The notes below the pieces were generated by a model. That model had not been told where the DNA came from. It ran no database searches and was given only the letters and a program-made list of their open reading frames with translations. From Nitrospira sp. (lineage in GTDB: Bacteria; Nitrospirota; Nitrospiria; Nitrospirales; Nitrospiraceae), in NCBI GenBank assembly GCA_024998625.1, contig JACOEL010000006.1:62001-126000 (forward strand): a DNA stretch of 64,000 bases, in the 5' to 3' direction. Below, in pieces: positions 8,483 to 60,863 of the stretch. The translations under genes were made by a program, and so were the position numbers. Each line of letters begins with the position of its first letter. Position 1 is the first letter of the stretch.

Positions 8483-8746
8483 ACATGACCTCCCGTCTCG
8501 CCAGGGAAGACGCAAGAGAAGTGCCGTTGCGGGAGGATGGGTTCGCAACTCGATGAAGAGGCGTACTCACCTCACGGGCTTGACGGCTCGAAGGTTGGTC
8601 TGCGAGTGATGCTGGGGCATTTCGCGACAGCAGGCGGCAATGACCTGCGGCAGGACGCCCCTTGACCGCTTGGGCGTAAGCCGATTAGGCTGTGCGCGCA
8701 CTCGTTGGAGGGCCGGTCCGATGAGAAGAGCACGCGAAGGAGCTGT

Positions 8747-13080: not shown

Positions 13081-13096
13081 TGGCACATGGTTTGCG
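13081..13096 (+). promoter_or_regulatory. Sigma-54 promoter upstream of the lone receiver gene
   Basis: TGGCAC-ATGGT-TTGC fits the -24/-12 consensus exactly, with GG and GC 12 bp apart. Transcription would start near 13106. This favours the GTG at 13137, which has GAGGG 7 nt upstream, over the ATG at 13110, which would lie almost on the transcript start. Confidence 0.7.
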
Positions 13097-13136
13097 TTGT
13101 GTTGTCCCCATGGTGACCTATTCCGAGGGTTCGAAC

Positions 13137-13682: not shown

Positions 13683-15086
13683 ATGGCCGGATCTCACTCA
13701 CAGGTAACGCCCCCTTCTCCCTTTACCGATCCGATTCTGGCCGCTCGTTTGGAAGCTTTGAAGCAGTTGGCTGACGGGCTGACGGACCGCGTCGCCGTGA
13801 TGGATCGGGAACTCAATGTGGTCTATGCCAATGAGGCCGCTTGGGCGAAGTCCGGCGAGCCGACTCCGGTCGCCAAGCCGGCCAAGTGCTTTCAATCCTT
13901 CGTTCAGATGACAGACCCCTGCGGGACTTGTCCTGCTGAGTCGGTCTTTAAGACGGGGGAAGTGCTCACGGTCTCCTGTACCACGTCTGGCGATGGGACT
14001 GCTTGCGGTATGCACCAGGCGTTTCCGCTCGTCTCCTCGGCAGGAGAAGTGGCCTCGGTTCTCGTGCTGTTTCACAAGCGGACGGAGCCGCTGAGCATGC
14101 CAGCGTCGCTGTCGCAGCAAAGGCTCGGCCGGTCACGTCCGGAACGGACCGAATCGAGATTGGGCGATCTGGTCGGCGCGAGTCCGGCCATGAATCAGCT
14201 GTTTGAAATGATCCGGTTGGTGGCCGACAGTTCGGCCACGGTGTTGATCCAGGGTGAAAGCGGCACGGGAAAGGAACTCGTGGCGCGAACTATTCACCAG
14301 ACGAGCTATCGTCGCGACAAGCCTTTTGTGGTGGTCGATTGCGGGGCACTCCCGGAAACGTTGCTGGAGAGTGAGCTGTTCGGCCATGTCAAAGGCGCTT
14401 TTACCGGAGCAGCCGGGGCGAAGCCCGGGCTGTTTGAAGAGGCCGACGGCGGCACGATCTTCCTGGATGAGATTGCCGACACCTCTCCGACCTTCCAGGC
14501 CAAACTTCTTCGAGTCTTGCAAGAAGGCGAGATCAAGCGAGTCGGCGGGACGCAGCCGGTCAAGATTGATGTCCGTGTCATTTCTGCTACCAACAAAGAT
14601 CTGACCGATCTGGTCAAGGCGAAGGCGTTTCGTCAGGACCTCTACTATCGGCTGGCCGTCTTGCCCGTTCATTTGCCGCCGCTGCGTGACCGGAGGATGG
14701 ACATTCCCCTGCTGGTCGCAAAATTTATTGCCGATTCCTGCCAGCGGCATCGGCAGGACGTTCGCCAGGTGAGCGAAGAGGCCATGCGTGCCTTGACCGC
14801 TGCGCCTTGGCCCGGGAATGTTCGCGAGCTGCAGCATTATATCGAGCGAGCCGTGGTGACCACGACTTATACGGAGTTGACCTGTGCGGATCTGGTCGAA
14901 CTGGGGAGTCCCCCTCAGGAGACCGACCTCAGGACGGTCGGCCGGGGTGCGGCGCGACAGGCTGAGCGGGCTCGTATCCTTCAGGCATTGCAGCAGACCT
15001 CCGGGAATCGAGTGCAGGCGGCCCGTGTGCTCAAAATCAGCCGGGCCAGCCTCTACAACAAGCTGCACGAACTCGGCATTCAGTAG
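13683..15086 (+). CDS. Sigma-54 activator with cysteine-rich PAS sensor (PAS-AAA-Fis)
   Basis: 467 residues from an ATG with GAGGAG ahead of it; there is no receiver domain. Residues about 20-135 form a PAS-like sensor with four clustered cysteines: one in AKCFQSF, two in DPCGTCP, and a further pair in VSCTT and TACGMHQ. The AAA+ core (about 160-395) has Walker A GESGTGKE, an intact GAFTGA loop (from residue 238) and Walker B TIFLDEI. A Fis-type helix-turn-helix is at the C-terminus ([21 protein letters not shown]). Such proteins sense directly rather than through phosphorylation. It lies just upstream of the multicopper oxidase, whose leader has a -24/-12 promoter, so it is the prime candidate activator of that gene. 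Confidence 0.92.
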
Positions 15087-15115: not shown

Positions 15116-15243
15116 CTCACTCACCTGCTTCCTACATCTATTCATACCCTTCATACCCTCTTCAGAATCAATCCGATTGCTCTTCTTTTTGCAACTGTTG
15201 AACGAGATGACTGTCCCGTATTGCCCCAAAACTCATGATTTGA

Positions 15244-15261
15244 TGTCCAGCGGCTTGGACA
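15244..15261. promoter_or_regulatory. Dyad symmetric site, candidate enhancer for the sigma-54 activator
   Basis: TGTCCA-GCGGCT-TGGACA is a perfect 6+6 inverted repeat with a 6-bp centre. It lies in a locally AT-rich, non-coding stretch about 160 bp upstream of the -24 element at 15423, the usual distance for a bacterial enhancer-binding protein. No second exact copy was seen in the window, so binding is an inference. Confidence 0.45.
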
Positions 15262-15422
15262 GTCTAAGTAATTGTATTTTAAGCGTTCATCTCGGTGTCG
15301 AAGTGTGTTGTCTAATCGTCTGGAAAACTGTGGCATTTCACGCCGGTTCAAAAGTTCCTACGCGACTCTCTAACACCTTAAAAATATAGACCATTTTAGT
15401 CAGGATGGGAGTGCCACTAGTG

Positions 15423-15438
15423 GGGCACATCAATTGCG
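15423..15438 (+). promoter_or_regulatory. Sigma-54-like promoter of the multicopper oxidase gene
   Basis: GGGCAC-ATCAA-TTGC has the invariant GG and GC at the correct 12-bp separation and one mismatch to TGGCAC-N5-TTGC. A palindrome, CCACTAGTGG (15414-15423), abuts it. The rest of the 589-bp gap from 15087 to 15675 contains the hairpin at 15098, the AT-rich stretch with the dyad, and a leader of roughly 225 nt; I see no gene in it. Confidence 0.6.
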
Positions 15439-15632
15439 ATGGAGGGCAGTGCTGGTGAAGGTGCGGGTGATTAGGACCGGCCTCCGAATGACCTGCTCCC
15501 TCGAACTTTGAGGACATCCTTCACCAGCCCTTTTTCCCTTTGGGAGCATTTCGTGGAGGGAGAAAGGAGAGGCCGGAGCAGCCGGGGTCCTGCCTGACGG
15601 AGGCCGGTCACACGACCACGTTTTTTAACCAC

Positions 15633-15665
15633 TCCCGCGGAAGGGCGCGGGATTATAAAGGAGGG
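15633..15665 (+). promoter_or_regulatory. Leader hairpin and strong ribosome-binding site of the oxidase gene
   Basis: TCCCGCG (15633-15639) pairs with CGCGGGA (15646-15652), and the Shine-Dalgarno AAAGGAGGG follows immediately, about 11 nt before the ATG at 15676. A stable hairpin next to so strong a ribosome site may protect the transcript or tune initiation. No known riboswitch fold was recognised in the leader. Confidence 0.4.
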
Positions 15666-15675
15666 AGGCCGACAT

Positions 15676-18600
15676 ATGAGGTCTTCAGTGCAGTCAAAAC
15701 GCAGGCGCATCAGTCGCAAAGCGATGCGCAGCCTGCAGGCGGCGCTGCTCTCGGGCAGTTTGCTCGCGGCGCCGTGGGTATTTGCGGCCGGGCCGGGTGA
15801 TCAGTCGCATGAGGGGCATGCGACACCGGTCGCCATGCCGGGCTGGACACAGACCCTGAAGGGTCAGACCGTGGTGGAGAACGCCATGGAGGGTCGCGCC
15901 GGCAATGCAGAGAAGATGGAGATGCAGCATCACCGTCTGATGGAGAAGTTGGAACAGCAGGCGCAGACCGATGCGAAGGCGCAGCAGACCTCCGGTGCAT
16001 TCAACGAAATGTCGATGATGCACCAGTACATGGGGCAGGACGGGAGCAGCTTCCTGCTGGCGTCCGATTCGTCTAAGGGCGAACCGGTGATGACGTCAGG
16101 GGGGAAATGTCCTGCCAACGCGCCGGTGAAGAAGTACGATGTGTCGATGATCAACATCGAAATCAGTTTGAATCGGTGGCTCGACTTCTATCCCGGATAT
16201 ATGTACGTCCATACCGGGGATATCGACAAGGTGCGCGCTGAGGAAACCAAGAACAAGGAAGCGCGCGAAAAGGACGGATTTGATCCTGGTGCGGTGACGA
16301 CCGGAAACCAGGGCGACGCGATTCAGCCGTTGGTCCTTCGTGCCAACCAGGGTGACTGCGTCAAGATGACGCTGCGCAATCAGATGGAGGGTGAGGACGG
16401 CAGCTTGGTCATCCAGGCCTCCAGCATGATTGTGAGCGCCACGGGCAAGCCTGCCACGACGACCAACCCGGATACGGTGGTTTCGCCGGGCAAGTCGCAG
16501 GAGTTCGAATGGTACATCCATCCGCAGATGCAGGAAGGTGTGCGTCAGTTCCACTCATGGAGCCATGATCGCGAGTTGACGGTGTTGGGTCTCTTCGGTG
16601 CCTTCATCGTCGAGCCGAAGGGTTCCAAGTACCTCGATCCGCTCGGGACGGGCGCCGCGCCCGATACGAACAGCGGGTGGCAGGTCATGATCGACAACGG
16701 GTCGGGACCGGACTTCCGCGAGTTCGTGTTGTTCTATCACGAGATCGGCGACGAAGCCTTCCGTCCGCTGAACAAGAAGGGTGACTTCTTGCCGCAGCGC
16801 GATCCGTTGACCGATGCCTATCGTCCGGGTGGCCGTGCGATCAACTATCGCAGCGAGCCGTTCGGCATCGATCAGATGCATTTGCAGCATGAATATTTCG
16901 GGTTCGAAGATGAGTCGCTGGCCTACAGCGCCTACACCTTCGGTGACCCACCCACCACGGTGGCCCGCGGTTATTTGGGCGATCCGGTGAAGTGGCGTCT
17001 CGTGCATGGTGGATCGGAAGTGTTCCACTCGCACCATCCGCACAGCGGAACCATCCGTTGGCAGCGGAGCCCGGGGACCGAGCTGAACAACCTCTGGGCG
17101 GCGGGACAGGATGGTCCGGTGAAGTATCCGGTCGTCCGAACGAAGTCTGATCGGGTGGACGTGGAAGTCGTAGGTCCGTCCGAAGCGCTTGATCTGGAGC
17201 CGGAATGCGGCGGCGGTGGCTGTCAGCACCTAGCCGGCGAGTTCCTCTATCACTGCCACGTCGCGCACCACTATGTGGCGGGCATGTGGGGGTACGGCCG
17301 GTTCTACAATACGCTGCAGGTCGGCAACGCGCACACCGACACGATGCCGGATATGCGTGAGTTGCCCGATCGTCAAGGCCGTATGAAGCAGGGTGTCTCG
17401 TCGGACAAGTTGATCGGCACCACCGTCGACTGGTTCGGCAAGACCTTCAAGATCGTCGACAAGAGCCAGAAGACGAACTGGAAGTCCGATCCCGTGATCG
17501 TGAACATCAAGGATTGGGTCGAGATGTTCGTCCCGGCCCAGGGTCAACCAGGCCACACGAATGATGAGAAAGGCCAGATCATGGCCTACGATTCGACGGT
17601 GTGGGACTGGAAGTGGGACGGCAACATCGCTCGCGGCGAGCGGGAGAGCACTGCTCCGAATCCAAAGTATCAGTGGGCGGCGAAGTGGGATGACAGCACC
17701 AGGCCGGCGATCCTGTTCGATCCGACGACAGGGAAAATGGCCTGGCCACTGTTCAAGCCGCACTTCGGCAAGCGCGTGCCGTTCTCGGCGAACCACAGCG
17801 GTGCGCCATGGTTGGAGCCGATTCACCAGGATGCGAATGGTGAGCGGACCTCCGAGCCAGCGTTGCCGGGCGAACAGGGCCGTTGGAGCCTGTGCCCTGA
17901 TAACGCCAATCGGAAGCATTACAACATCCACTTTGTCCGCATGCCGATCACCCTGGCTAAGAAGCAGGGGAAAGAGCCGGCCATGGTGGACAAGGACGGT
18001 CTGATCTACGTCCTTCACGAAGAAGAGCGTTTGACCAGAGCCAATGACGATCTGAAACTGCCCGCCGTCATCCGCGCCAACGTGTATGACTGCGTGGACT
18101 TGTTGTTGACCAGCGAATGGGACGACGACGATTACACGAACTTCCAGTCGTCCAAGATCAACATCCATCCCCACTTCTTCCAGTTCGACACCGGGAACTC
18201 GGACGGTGTGATCTCCGGGATGGAGTACGAAATGTCGGTCCGGCCGTTCACCATGTGGGGGAAGAAGACCAAGCATGGATTGCCGGCACCGATGGTCGCG
18301 AAGCTGACCGGCGAAGCCAAGGCCGGGGCCGCATCCATTAAGTTCCAGATGGCGCCAGGCGCCACGCCGTTCCACGTCAACACCGAGTTGATGGTCGGCA
18401 TGGATTGCTTGGAGAAGGGCAACGATCCGGCGGCGTCACTGCCGCGGGATAAGAGCTGTCAGGAAGTGGCACGTGTGAAAGAGATCAAGGGCGATGTCAT
18501 CACGTTCTTCAAGCCGCTGAAGCACAATCATCCGGCGGGCGACCTCGTGTCCCCGGAGTTCGTGCGCTACCGGTGGTGGGTTGACGTGGACATGGGGACC

Positions 18601-20613
18601 GTGTTCTGGCATGACCACGCGTTCGGCGCGACGACCTGGCCCCATGGCGGGTTCGGCGTGACGATCGTGGAGCCATACGGATCCACCTATCATGATCCGA
18701 AGAACGGCAAGTTGGTGTATAGCGGTCCGATCGCGGACATTCACAGCAACGAGCCGATCGGTGCCGGTGTCAGCGGCAGCTTCCGTGAGTTGATGGTCTC
18801 CATCCACGACACGGTCCCGCACACCGTCAACGTCATCGAAGCCGGCAATCCTCCCGGACAGCCGATCGAAGTGGCGTTGGAAGCAGGAAAAACGGTGTCG
18901 TTCCAGATGCCGGACAAGATCCTGAATGCGCCGAACAAGTACATCAACGGCGGGACGCATACGACCGGCAGCGGCTTCAACTTCCGCGCGGCCCCGTTTG
19001 CGCAACGTCTGTCCAACAATCCGGACACCTCGAAGCTGTTCAGCAGCGCGATCCATGGCGATCCGGGTACTCCGCTCCTGCGGGCGTACACGGGCGACAC
19101 CATGGTGTTCCGCCTGTTGCACCAGCTGATGAACGAATCGCACGTCTGGACGATCGCCGGACATACCTTCCTGACGGAACGGTATGCGTCGGATGCCAAC
19201 CGGAAGAACTCGATTCACGTCGGGATCGCCGAGCGGTATGACCTCGTCACCAAGGCGGGAGGATTCCAGGGTATGCCGGGTGACTACATCCACTTCAACG
19301 GCAGAACGTCACACTTCGCCGAAGGTGGATGGGGCATCATCCGCGTGCTCGATAAGGAAGTGGCGGATTTGAAGCCGCTGCCCAGGGGGACCAATCCTCT
19401 CGGGATTCCAGCGACTCCCAATTCCGTCTGTCCGTCGGATGCCCCGGTGAAGAGCTTCAATGTTGTGGCGTTGGATCGCCCGATGAAGCTCAACCCGAAG
19501 GCCCCGGATGCGATCGAGGTGGACTTCGAGCGGAAGATCGAAATGACCATGCCGGAAGGCAAGATCTTCGCGCTGGAAGAGGAAGCGACGACAGTGGCCA
19601 GCGGAGTGACCCCGAACCCGTTGACCCTGCGCGTCAACCTTGGTGACTGCATCAAGGTGAATCTGAAGAACAAGATGAAGGCGAGCCGGGCGTCGTTCTT
19701 TGCGCCGGGCCTGGCCTTCGATCCGAAAGACAGCCAGGGCTTGAATGTCGGCAACAATGCCGGCGATCAGACTGTGGCTCCGGGCGAGAGCCGCACCTAC
19801 ACCTATTACGCGCATCCTTCCAACAAGGAAACGACGTCGTTGGTGTGGGACGGTGGCAACATCGTCGTCAATCCGCGTAACGGATTGTACGGCGCGATCG
19901 TCATCGGTCCGAAGGGATCGCAGTATCGTGATCCAGTCACCGGTGCCGATGTGTCGCAGAAGAACGTGTGGCGGGCCGACGTCATCGTCGATGCCAGCCT
20001 TCCTGAAAACGTCGGCAAGCGGAACTACCGTGACGTGGCCCTCTTCTTCCAAGATGAGGACAACATCATCGGAACCGCGTTCATGCCCTATGTGCAGAAT
20101 GTGGCCGGTTTGACGTCGGTGAATTACCGCGCTGAACCGTACAAGTTCCGTGAAGAACAAGGCTGCTCGCTGGGCAAGATCTTCCAGCCCTGCGCGGTGG
20201 ACAAGCCCGAAGATCCCGTCACGCCTCTGATCGAGGCGCATGCGGGTGATGCGATCCGTATTCACGTGATCGGGGCGAACAGTGAGCAGAACGGTATGTT
20301 CAGCGTCGAGGGCCACGAGTGGCCGATCGAACCGTACATGCCGGGTGCCGACATGATCAGCGTGGTGGAATACGCCGGGTCTGAGACCCTCGACGTCTTC
20401 ATCCGTGGCGGTGCGGGCGGACCGTATCGTCAGGTGGGTGACTTCGTATGGTCGAATGCGCGGCTGCCCTACACGCAGTCCGGACAGTGGGGCTATCTGC
20501 GCGTGTTGCCGACCGGCGATGCGCGAATTCAGCCTCTGAGCGCCAGCGGATCGGGTGCACGTCAAGCCGAGGTGCAGCCTGATGTGCAAGCGATTCCGAC
20601 GGCCATGAAGTAA
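15676..20613 (+). CDS. Giant secreted multicopper oxidase (MofA-like length)
   Basis: 1645 residues, far longer than laccases (about 500) and close to the MofA-type manganese oxidase of Leptothrix (about 1660). A signal peptide ends near residue 38 (WVFA-AG). Copper-ligand clusters are spread over several cupredoxin domains: H293 (HSWSHD), HSHHPH at 451-456, HCHVAHHYVAGM at 526-537 (type 1/type 3 signature with a Met axial ligand), HPH at 831-833, WHDHAF with H979, and HVWTIAGH from H1156. The chain therefore looks like two fused oxidase units plus a C-terminal cupredoxin part. It should oxidise a metal or organic donor and reduce O2 in the periplasm or outside the cell. Start: ATG after AAAGGAGGG. 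The natural substrate is not deducible; Mn(II) oxidation is a hypothesis. Confidence 0.9.
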   Translation: MRSSVQSKRRRISRKAMRSLQAALLSGSLLAAPWVFAAGPGDQSHEGHATPVAMPGWTQTLKGQTVVENAMEGRAGNAEKMEMQHHRLMEKLEQQAQTDAKAQQTSGAFNEMSMMHQYMGQDGSSFLLASDSSKGEPVMTSGGKCPANAPVKKYDVSMINIEISLNRWLDFYPGYMYVHTGDIDKVRAEETKNKEAREKDGFDPGAVTTGNQGDAIQPLVLRANQGDCVKMTLRNQMEGEDGSLVIQASSMIVSATGKPATTTNPDTVVSPGKSQEFEWYIHPQMQEGVRQFHSWSHDRELTVLGLFGAFIVEPKGSKYLDPLGTGAAPDTNSGWQVMIDNGSGPDFREFVLFYHEIGDEAFRPLNKKGDFLPQRDPLTDAYRPGGRAINYRSEPFGIDQMHLQHEYFGFEDESLAYSAYTFGDPPTTVARGYLGDPVKWRLVHGGSEVFHSHHPHSGTIRWQRSPGTELNNLWAAGQDGPVKYPVVRTKSDRVDVEVVGPSEALDLEPECGGGGCQHLAGEFLYHCHVAHHYVAGMWGYGRFYNTLQVGNAHTDTMPDMRELPDRQGRMKQGVSSDKLIGTTVDWFGKTFKIVDKSQKTNWKSDPVIVNIKDWVEMFVPAQGQPGHTNDEKGQIMAYDSTVWDWKWDGNIARGERESTAPNPKYQWAAKWDDSTRPAILFDPTTGKMAWPLFKPHFGKRVPFSANHSGAPWLEPIHQDANGERTSEPALPGEQGRWSLCPDNANRKHYNIHFVRMPITLAKKQGKEPAMVDKDGLIYVLHEEERLTRANDDLKLPAVIRANVYDCVDLLLTSEWDDDDYTNFQSSKINIHPHFFQFDTGNSDGVISGMEYEMSVRPFTMWGKKTKHGLPAPMVAKLTGEAKAGAASIKFQMAPGATPFHVNTELMVGMDCLEKGNDPAASLPRDKSCQEVARVKEIKGDVITFFKPLKHNHPAGDLVSPEFVRYRWWVDVDMGTVFWHDHAFGATTWPHGGFGVTIVEPYGSTYHDPKNGKLVYSGPIADIHSNEPIGAGVSGSFRELMVSIHDTVPHTVNVIEAGNPPGQPIEVALEAGKTVSFQMPDKILNAPNKYINGGTHTTGSGFNFRAAPFAQRLSNNPDTSKLFSSAIHGDPGTPLLRAYTGDTMVFRLLHQLMNESHVWTIAGHTFLTERYASDANRKNSIHVGIAERYDLVTKAGGFQGMPGDYIHFNGRTSHFAEGGWGIIRVLDKEVADLKPLPRGTNPLGIPATPNSVCPSDAPVKSFNVVALDRPMKLNPKAPDAIEVDFERKIEMTMPEGKIFALEEEATTVASGVTPNPLTLRVNLGDCIKVNLKNKMKASRASFFAPGLAFDPKDSQGLNVGNNAGDQTVAPGESRTYTYYAHPSNKETTSLVWDGGNIVVNPRNGLYGAIVIGPKGSQYRDPVTGADVSQKNVWRADVIVDASLPENVGKRNYRDVALFFQDEDNIIGTAFMPYVQNVAGLTSVNYRAEPYKFREEQGCSLGKIFQPCAVDKPEDPVTPLIEAHAGDAIRIHVIGANSEQNGMFSVEGHEWPIEPYMPGADMISVVEYAGSETLDVFIRGGAGGPYRQVGDFVWSNARLPYTQSGQWGYLRVLPTGDARIQPLSASGSGARQAEVQPDVQAIPTAMK

Positions 20614-20682: not shown

Positions 20683-20775
20683 TGAGTCCCGAGAGAGGAA
20701 TTAGGTGATGGGTTCACTGTATGATCGAGGACATCGGTCGATCGCATCATGAACCAATCACAGAGGAGGCCGGAC

Positions 20776-60847: not shown

Positions 60848-60863
60848 TGGCACTTGTTTTGCT
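60848..60863 (+). promoter_or_regulatory. Sigma-54 promoter upstream of the universal stress protein gene
   Basis: TGGCAC-TTGTT-TTGCT matches the -24/-12 consensus in every key base with correct spacing. It lies about 147 nt upstream of the ATG at 61010. Its position rules out the longer reading frame that begins at 60845. Confidence 0.7.

Follow-up and report, generated by a model that had tools for sequence, protein, structure and literature searches.

Our analysis of a Nitrospira sp. locus favours a model that we regard as reasonably probable, in which the gene for an MnxG-like multicopper oxidase (MCO) is driven from a sigma-54 promoter by an activator acting through upstream dyads, and in which the mRNA leader carries a structured RNA that would control translation by means of a loop complementary to the ribosome-binding site (RBS). 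Loci from named genomes put the source close to Ca. N. defluvii. All the evidence is comparative. Sequence elements, conservation, covariation, co-occurrence and complementarity were observed, whereas the binding of the activator, the start site, the pairing of loop and RBS, the direction of its effect and the signal are inferred.

The oxidase gene (15676..20613, plus strand) encodes a protein of 1645 amino acids with the Pfam domains Cu-oxidase_3 and Cu-oxidase; coordinates refer to the window, which is the whole stretch of 64,000 nucleotides that was analysed. We call the protein MnxG-like only on account of a sequence match in the PDB (MnxG, 9bxa; E = 3.8e-86). Against the NCBIfam model MnxG it scored 108.5 bits, below the equivalog cut-off of 3100, and that criterion was not met. 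Judged by inspection of its N-terminal signal-like sequence, the enzyme is probably exported.

Promoter and enhancer-like elements upstream of the oxidase gene

An earlier note on this DNA had proposed enhancer-dependent control of the oxidase, a reading that is well supported as far as sequence comparison allows, since all the elements are conserved together: rpoN, present once in the genome (Sigma54_DBD, E = 1.7e-56), the promoter, two dyads and a co-inherited activator. The criteria for a sigma-54 promoter (rpoN, the spacing of GG and GC, an activator with GAFTGA and two dyads at conserved distances) were met. The dyad described in the earlier note, TGTCCA-GCGGCT-TGGACA (UAS1), is present at 15244..15261, and its separation from the -24/-12 element, given there as about 160 bp, is 163 bp. 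Upstream activator sites of sigma-54 promoters lie about 100-200 bp before the promoter. The exact sequence of UAS1 occurs in a single copy in the whole 4.4 Mb genome. A second, imperfect dyad, TGTCTA-N6-TGGAAA (UAS2; 15309..15326), had been missed, as had the structured RNA in the leader.

Scanning related genomes, a check that the earlier note had suggested, revealed that dyad and promoter element are both conserved. We compared 22 upstream regions orthologous to the oxidase promoter, in which the spacers that separate the leader from the activator gene showed 50-61% identity outside the conserved islands. The halves of UAS1 were 92-98% conserved around an N6 of 52%, those of UAS2 96-99%, and the -24/-12 element, found in 22/22 regions, was 93% identical. 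Two further islands lie on the plus strand: GTCTAAGTAATTGTATTTTA, adjoining UAS1 at 15262..15282 (84% mean identity, 22 orthologues), and ACTGTCCCGTATTGCCCCAAAA at 15210..15231, whose mean identity of 83% stands out from the 50-55% on either side and which may be a third site, or a half site, for the activator.

A wider set comprised 98 non-identical oxidase promoters from the Nitrospirales, selected by GG[CA]A[CT]-N5-TTGC at no more than 80 bp from the loop described below. The best dyad scored 10-12 of 12 in 86 of these 98 promoters, a level reached by less than 1% of dinucleotide shuffles. UAS1, in the form TGTCYA-N6-TRGACA, was located at -176 to -196 bp from the -24 GG in 85 promoters, with UAS2 64-67 bp 3' of UAS1 in 68; counting against the assignment, UAS1 was displaced or weak in the other 13. 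The two halves of the dyad also tend to vary symmetrically, TGTCTA/TAGACA replacing TGTCCA/TGGACA (Fisher p = 0.01 without correction for relatedness).

The -24/-12 element, GGCAC-ATCAA-TTGC, occupies 15424..15437 on the plus strand, with GG at 15424-15425, GC at 15436-15437 and 10 bp between them; the earlier note had recognized it, although the GGGCAC quoted there begins one base early. In the set of 98, 97 promoters carry GGCAC or GGCAT at -24. As the selection of this set favours the motif, its frequency is better judged from loci chosen by the oxidase alone, and GGCAY-N5-TTGC was present in nearly all of these. The string by itself is found at chance level (20 matches to GGCAC-N5-TTGC with one mismatch in the window, 19.3 expected), so the case for the promoter depends on conservation. 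By the -12 rule, transcription is predicted to start at about 15449 (plus strand), 12 nt past the GC, which leaves 2 nt to the first helix of the leader RNA. This predicted +1 gives a leader of about 227 nt up to the ATG at 15676, close to the 225 nt of the earlier estimate. The first helix, P1, begins 13-14 nt past TTGC in 85/98 loci, which would place the beginning of the RNA right at the 5' end of the transcript.

The ease with which GGCAC-N5-TTGC arises by chance when one mismatch is allowed leaves room for the idea that the -24/-12 match is a coincidence and that another regulator, a repressor, uses the dyads as its operators. This idea we find scarcely credible, given the constant 13-14 nt that separate the element from P1, the absence of any sigma-70-like site when the oxidase upstream region was searched for one, and the co-occurrence with the leader RNA of an activator whose helix-turn-helix (HTH) is conserved. 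That a sigma-54 promoter with its upstream sites drives the oxidase is, in our judgement, very likely, although it has not been shown biochemically.

Other promoter-like strings were seen in the window. One conserved sigma-54 promoter, TGGCAY-N5-TTGC at 13081-13095 (15/15 close relatives), precedes a response-regulator gene that itself precedes the activator gene; its predicted start falls about 3 nt before the ATG at 13110, and use of that ATG would leave the transcript almost without a leader. On the minus strand, a match to GGCAC-N5-TTGC (8512-8525) stands just before an efflux gene of the HlyD/MacA type and in divergent orientation to an NtrC-type response regulator, and another exact match, TGGCACTTGTTTTGC, is found at 60849-60862.

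The activator gene and its co-inheritance with the leader RNA

The gene just upstream of the oxidase (13683..15086, plus strand; 467 amino acids) encodes a sigma-54 activator with an intact GAFTGA, as the earlier note had read it, and Pfam identified the domains Sigma54_activat (1.8e-72), AAA lid and HTH_8. GAFTGA is also encoded upstream of the oxidase in relatives. The protein consists of a Cys-rich N-terminal sensor region, an AAA+ domain and a Fis-type HTH that is well conserved among orthologues. No Pfam match was obtained for the N-terminus (13683-14160), an unclassified sensor region with the conserved cysteines KC..DPCGTCP..SC..ACGM, which is a candidate for sensing metal or redox. Copper or redox as the signal is not a result but an inference that rests on the Cys cluster and on the oxidase being a copper enzyme.

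The source genome contains 36 Sigma54_activat matches (34 strong). That this particular activator serves the oxidase promoter is best supported by its co-inheritance with the leader RNA without strict linkage. In a sample of 396 genomes of the phylum, an activator orthologue was found in 115 Nitrospirales genomes and the leader RNA in 114, both being present in 113; the RNA occurred without the activator in one genome and the activator without the RNA in two. The distance between them was below 3 kb in 66 of the 113 genomes and 3-25 kb in 17, while in the remaining 30 they were far apart or on other contigs (different contigs in 29). Ten genomes outside the Nitrospirales gave near-threshold activator matches, which may be paralogues, and lacked the RNA. 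Many genomes of the sample are metagenome assemblies and they are related to one another, hence the counts are not independent. With this caveat, we think it likely that the activator acts at the oxidase promoter, its binding to the dyads being inferred.

The leader RNA, its loop and complementary ribosome-binding sites

No part of the region is more conserved, or less well explained, than the leader. It contains an RNA of about 80 nt (15451..15528, plus strand; 98% identity over 81 nt in orthologues; fold z = -4.3) that folds as a three-way junction composed of P1 (15451-15461 with 15518-15528), the hairpin P2 (15463-15496) and P3 (approximately 15499-15513). In 49 distinct sequences of this RNA, 99% of the pair cells were standard, 10/22 base pairs had changes on both sides, and 0/500 shuffles reached the covariation values. 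We hold it as virtually certain that this structure is real. Covariance-model matches were confined to the Nitrospirales (families f1 and f2) in the 396-genome phylum sample, and at the loci inspected the RNA was found only before MCO genes, identified by tblastn where the loop was exact or by reading the downstream start region where it varied.

P2 bears an almost invariant loop of 12 nt, GGACCGGCCUCC (15474..15485, plus strand), which contains CCUCC. Other MCO leaders keep this loop although their stems differ. Six exact copies exist in the genome, of which two are loops of MCO leaders, one (on the other strand) is the RBS of a third MCO and three are in coding sequence; on this distribution we rejected the possibility that the loop is a genome-wide repeat. 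Nearer the oxidase gene, an almost invariant hairpin, CCCGCG-GAAGGG-CGCGGG (15634..15651, plus strand; 22 orthologues), lies just 5' of the RBS.

The loop is complementary to several RBSs. It matches over 8 nt the RBS of the oxidase, GGAGGCCG (15664..15671, plus strand), and it is also complementary to that of the second gene, GGAGGCCGGAC (20765..20775, plus strand), where GGAGGCC was conserved in 18/19 orthologues. An internal complement, GGAGGCCGGTC in the DNA, is present at 15599..15609 (plus strand), and roughly half of the leaders that we checked have one. Mean pairing energies with the loop were -16.8 kcal/mol for the RBSs of MCOs, versus -11.2 for background genes with a Shine-Dalgarno sequence and -12.8 for genes with GGAGG; the oxidase sequences are mutually related and these tests are not independent.

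The genome encodes two further oxidases of the same family, located on C17 and C16. The gene for the C17 oxidase is preceded by a separate activator, by a TGGAACG-N4-TTGC promoter and by a hairpin that carries this loop, whereas that for the C16 oxidase, of sigma-70 type, has a TTGACA-N17-TAATCT promoter and no loop hairpin, and its RBS, AAGGAGGCCGGTCC (AAGGAGGCCGGUCC-AUG), abuts the ATG and matches the reverse complement of the loop exactly. Within the genus, the exact 12-nt complement served as the RBS in 9/9 paralogues of the sigma-70 type examined, and in two diverged genomes it is the RBS of an oxidase, the RNA, UASs and promoter being found at another oxidase.

Leaders of the C17 type differ among loci. 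In three of them (L043, L044 and L047) two tandem hairpins, spaced by about 103 nt, both display the loop GGACCGGCCTCC, while the C17-type oxidases at L048, L155 and L157 have no loop hairpin and their RBS is GGAGGTAGCTC instead of GGAGGTAGGTC, which lowers its complementarity to the loop. At one locus (L020) six in-frame TGA codons break the oxidase orthologue, with no damage apparent in its promoter or leader RNA.

Preservation of the loop while the stems change fits a base-pairing seed. Covariation of loop and RBS cannot be demonstrated because the loop hardly varies; the variants that exist (GGACTGGCCTCC and others) lack a compensating change in the RBS, and some of these RBSs pair through GGAGG only. 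An apparent compensating change for the RBS GGAGGCCAGTCC was dropped, as no RNA element with a matching loop variant was identified in that genome. RBSs of the form GGAGGCCG also serve genes unrelated to oxidases, and a regulon defined by this form was set aside, with 48 pattern matches against 24 in the reversed control and a mixed gene set. From complementarity and conservation alone, we put pairing with RBSs as the function of the leader RNA at about an even chance; it is the leading explanation, remains unproven, and its action in cis cannot be separated from action in trans.

Even if the promoter is read correctly, the RNA could be a riboswitch sensing a ligand such as copper or another metal, with the loop in its binding core or expression platform. 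A junction that is compact and covaries, placed at the start of the mRNA of a metalloenzyme, would suit such a device, and the alternative complements of the loop, at 15599-15609 and at the RBS, resemble an expression platform. However, the junction nucleotides outside the loop vary and the same loop sits on simple, unrelated stems, unlike a ligand pocket; moreover, no intrinsic terminator was found on the plus strand of the leader, and a search of Rfam with the RNA returned no family, riboswitch classes included. We consider a riboswitch improbable.

A site for an RNA-binding protein, either CsrA or the oxidase itself in autogenous control, seems to us doubtful. The genome does encode CsrA, the loop contains GGA and is displayed in hairpins, in tandem in some leaders, and the restriction of the RNA to MCO genes would also suit such a site. 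CsrA requires only GGA within a loop. Yet all 12 bases of this loop are kept, and its GGA is predicted to pair with UCC, which may restrict the loop to six free bases, CCGGCC, a point that weighs against the pairing of loop and RBS as well. Autogenous control is disfavoured because the MCO is probably exported.

There is likewise only a small chance that the RNA is released by early termination or processing as a small RNA of about 85 nt that acts solely in trans on the RBSs of paralogues. The RNA does start at the predicted +1, the end of P1 is followed by a conserved UCUUU-like stretch, the RBS of the sigma-70 paralogue is a perfect complement, and the anti-Shine-Dalgarno hairpins of NfeR1, with their divergent stems, provide an analogy (PMC10746234). 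On the other hand, the U stretch is weak and variable with no terminator predicted, the conserved leader runs on to the RBS within the genus, and in most genomes a loop-complementary RBS is located in cis.

Proposed mechanism and relation to known systems

In the mechanism that we propose around loop-RBS pairing, the Cys-rich-sensor regulator would bind UAS1 and UAS2, and DNA looping would let it drive the sigma-54 polymerase at the -24/-12 promoter. Transcription from about 15449 would then yield an mRNA opening with the compact three-way junction, whose loop, as an anti-Shine-Dalgarno sequence, could pair with its own RBS or with the internal copy, GGAGGCCGGUC in the RNA. Further possible partners are the RBS of the second gene and, as a perfect match, that of the sigma-70-driven paralogue. 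The leader would most likely tune or delay translation of the induced oxidase operon, the direction of this effect being inferred, and repression of the constitutive paralogue in trans is possible too. Counting against the model, no Hfq was found when the genome was searched for it. A fully bifunctional leader, acting on its own RBS in cis and silencing the sigma-70 paralogue (possibly other genes as well) in trans without Hfq, is unlikely but not to be dismissed.

The earlier note regarded this type of control as rare for a multicopper oxidase, a view that holds only in part. In Pseudomonas putida GB-1, sigma-54 promoters are predicted for mnxG and mcoA, which also have a response regulator of the sigma-54 type, MnxR, and Mn oxidation was lost when rpoN was mutated in a related strain (PMC11409713, PMC11930936). 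The Pseudomonas genes and the Nitrospira locus share a large MnxG-like oxidase, a sigma-54 promoter and an activator of the NtrC family. They differ in that Pseudomonas employs a two-component regulator (MnxS1/S2-MnxR) and a predicted IHF site, whereas the Nitrospira activator has a Cys-rich sensor and no receiver domain, and its locus has two TGTCCA dyads, a structured leader RNA and no known Mn phenotype. Sigma-54 control of MnxG-type oxidases is thus already known in Pseudomonas, and the Nitrospira locus adds a case with a different activator architecture.

With regard to the RNA, the closest likeness is to the alpha-r14 small RNAs of rhizobia, such as NfeR1, in which an ultraconserved unpaired anti-Shine-Dalgarno sequence is carried on differing stems and is predicted to pair at translation initiation regions (PMC10746234). 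The Nitrospira loop is similarly conserved and complementary to RBSs on variable stems. In contrast, the alpha-r14 RNAs are stand-alone molecules with the motif CCUCCUCCC, which is absent from the Nitrospira leader RNA, and in the latter the loop resides within the mRNA leaders of the target family itself; membership in the alpha-r14 family was not met, there being no Rfam match. The leader also resembles translational riboswitches and other RBS-sequestering leaders in its 5' structure and alternative complements, one of them overlapping the RBS, but it has no ligand or known aptamer, and its conservation is concentrated in one loop and not in a junction pocket. We found no literature on a leader RNA of Nitrospira oxidases, and no order-wide anti-Shine-Dalgarno loop within the mRNA leaders of one enzyme family was found in Rfam or in the papers searched; only openly licensed papers were covered, and for novelty this absence speaks only weakly.

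Nitrospira are dominant nitrite oxidizers, and to our knowledge little is known of their gene regulation after the start of transcription. Our results add an uncatalogued RNA family with a base-pairing hypothesis and make the regulon of one sigma-54 activator testable. They indicate that MnxG-like oxidases are probably under sigma-54 control outside Pseudomonas as well, which may hint at the substrate or the signal of these uncharacterized enzymes. If the leader were indeed bifunctional, inducing one oxidase would swap out another. In summary, the activator, the two enhancer dyads, the promoter, the structured RNA and the oxidase define a regulatory unit that extends across the order Nitrospirales.
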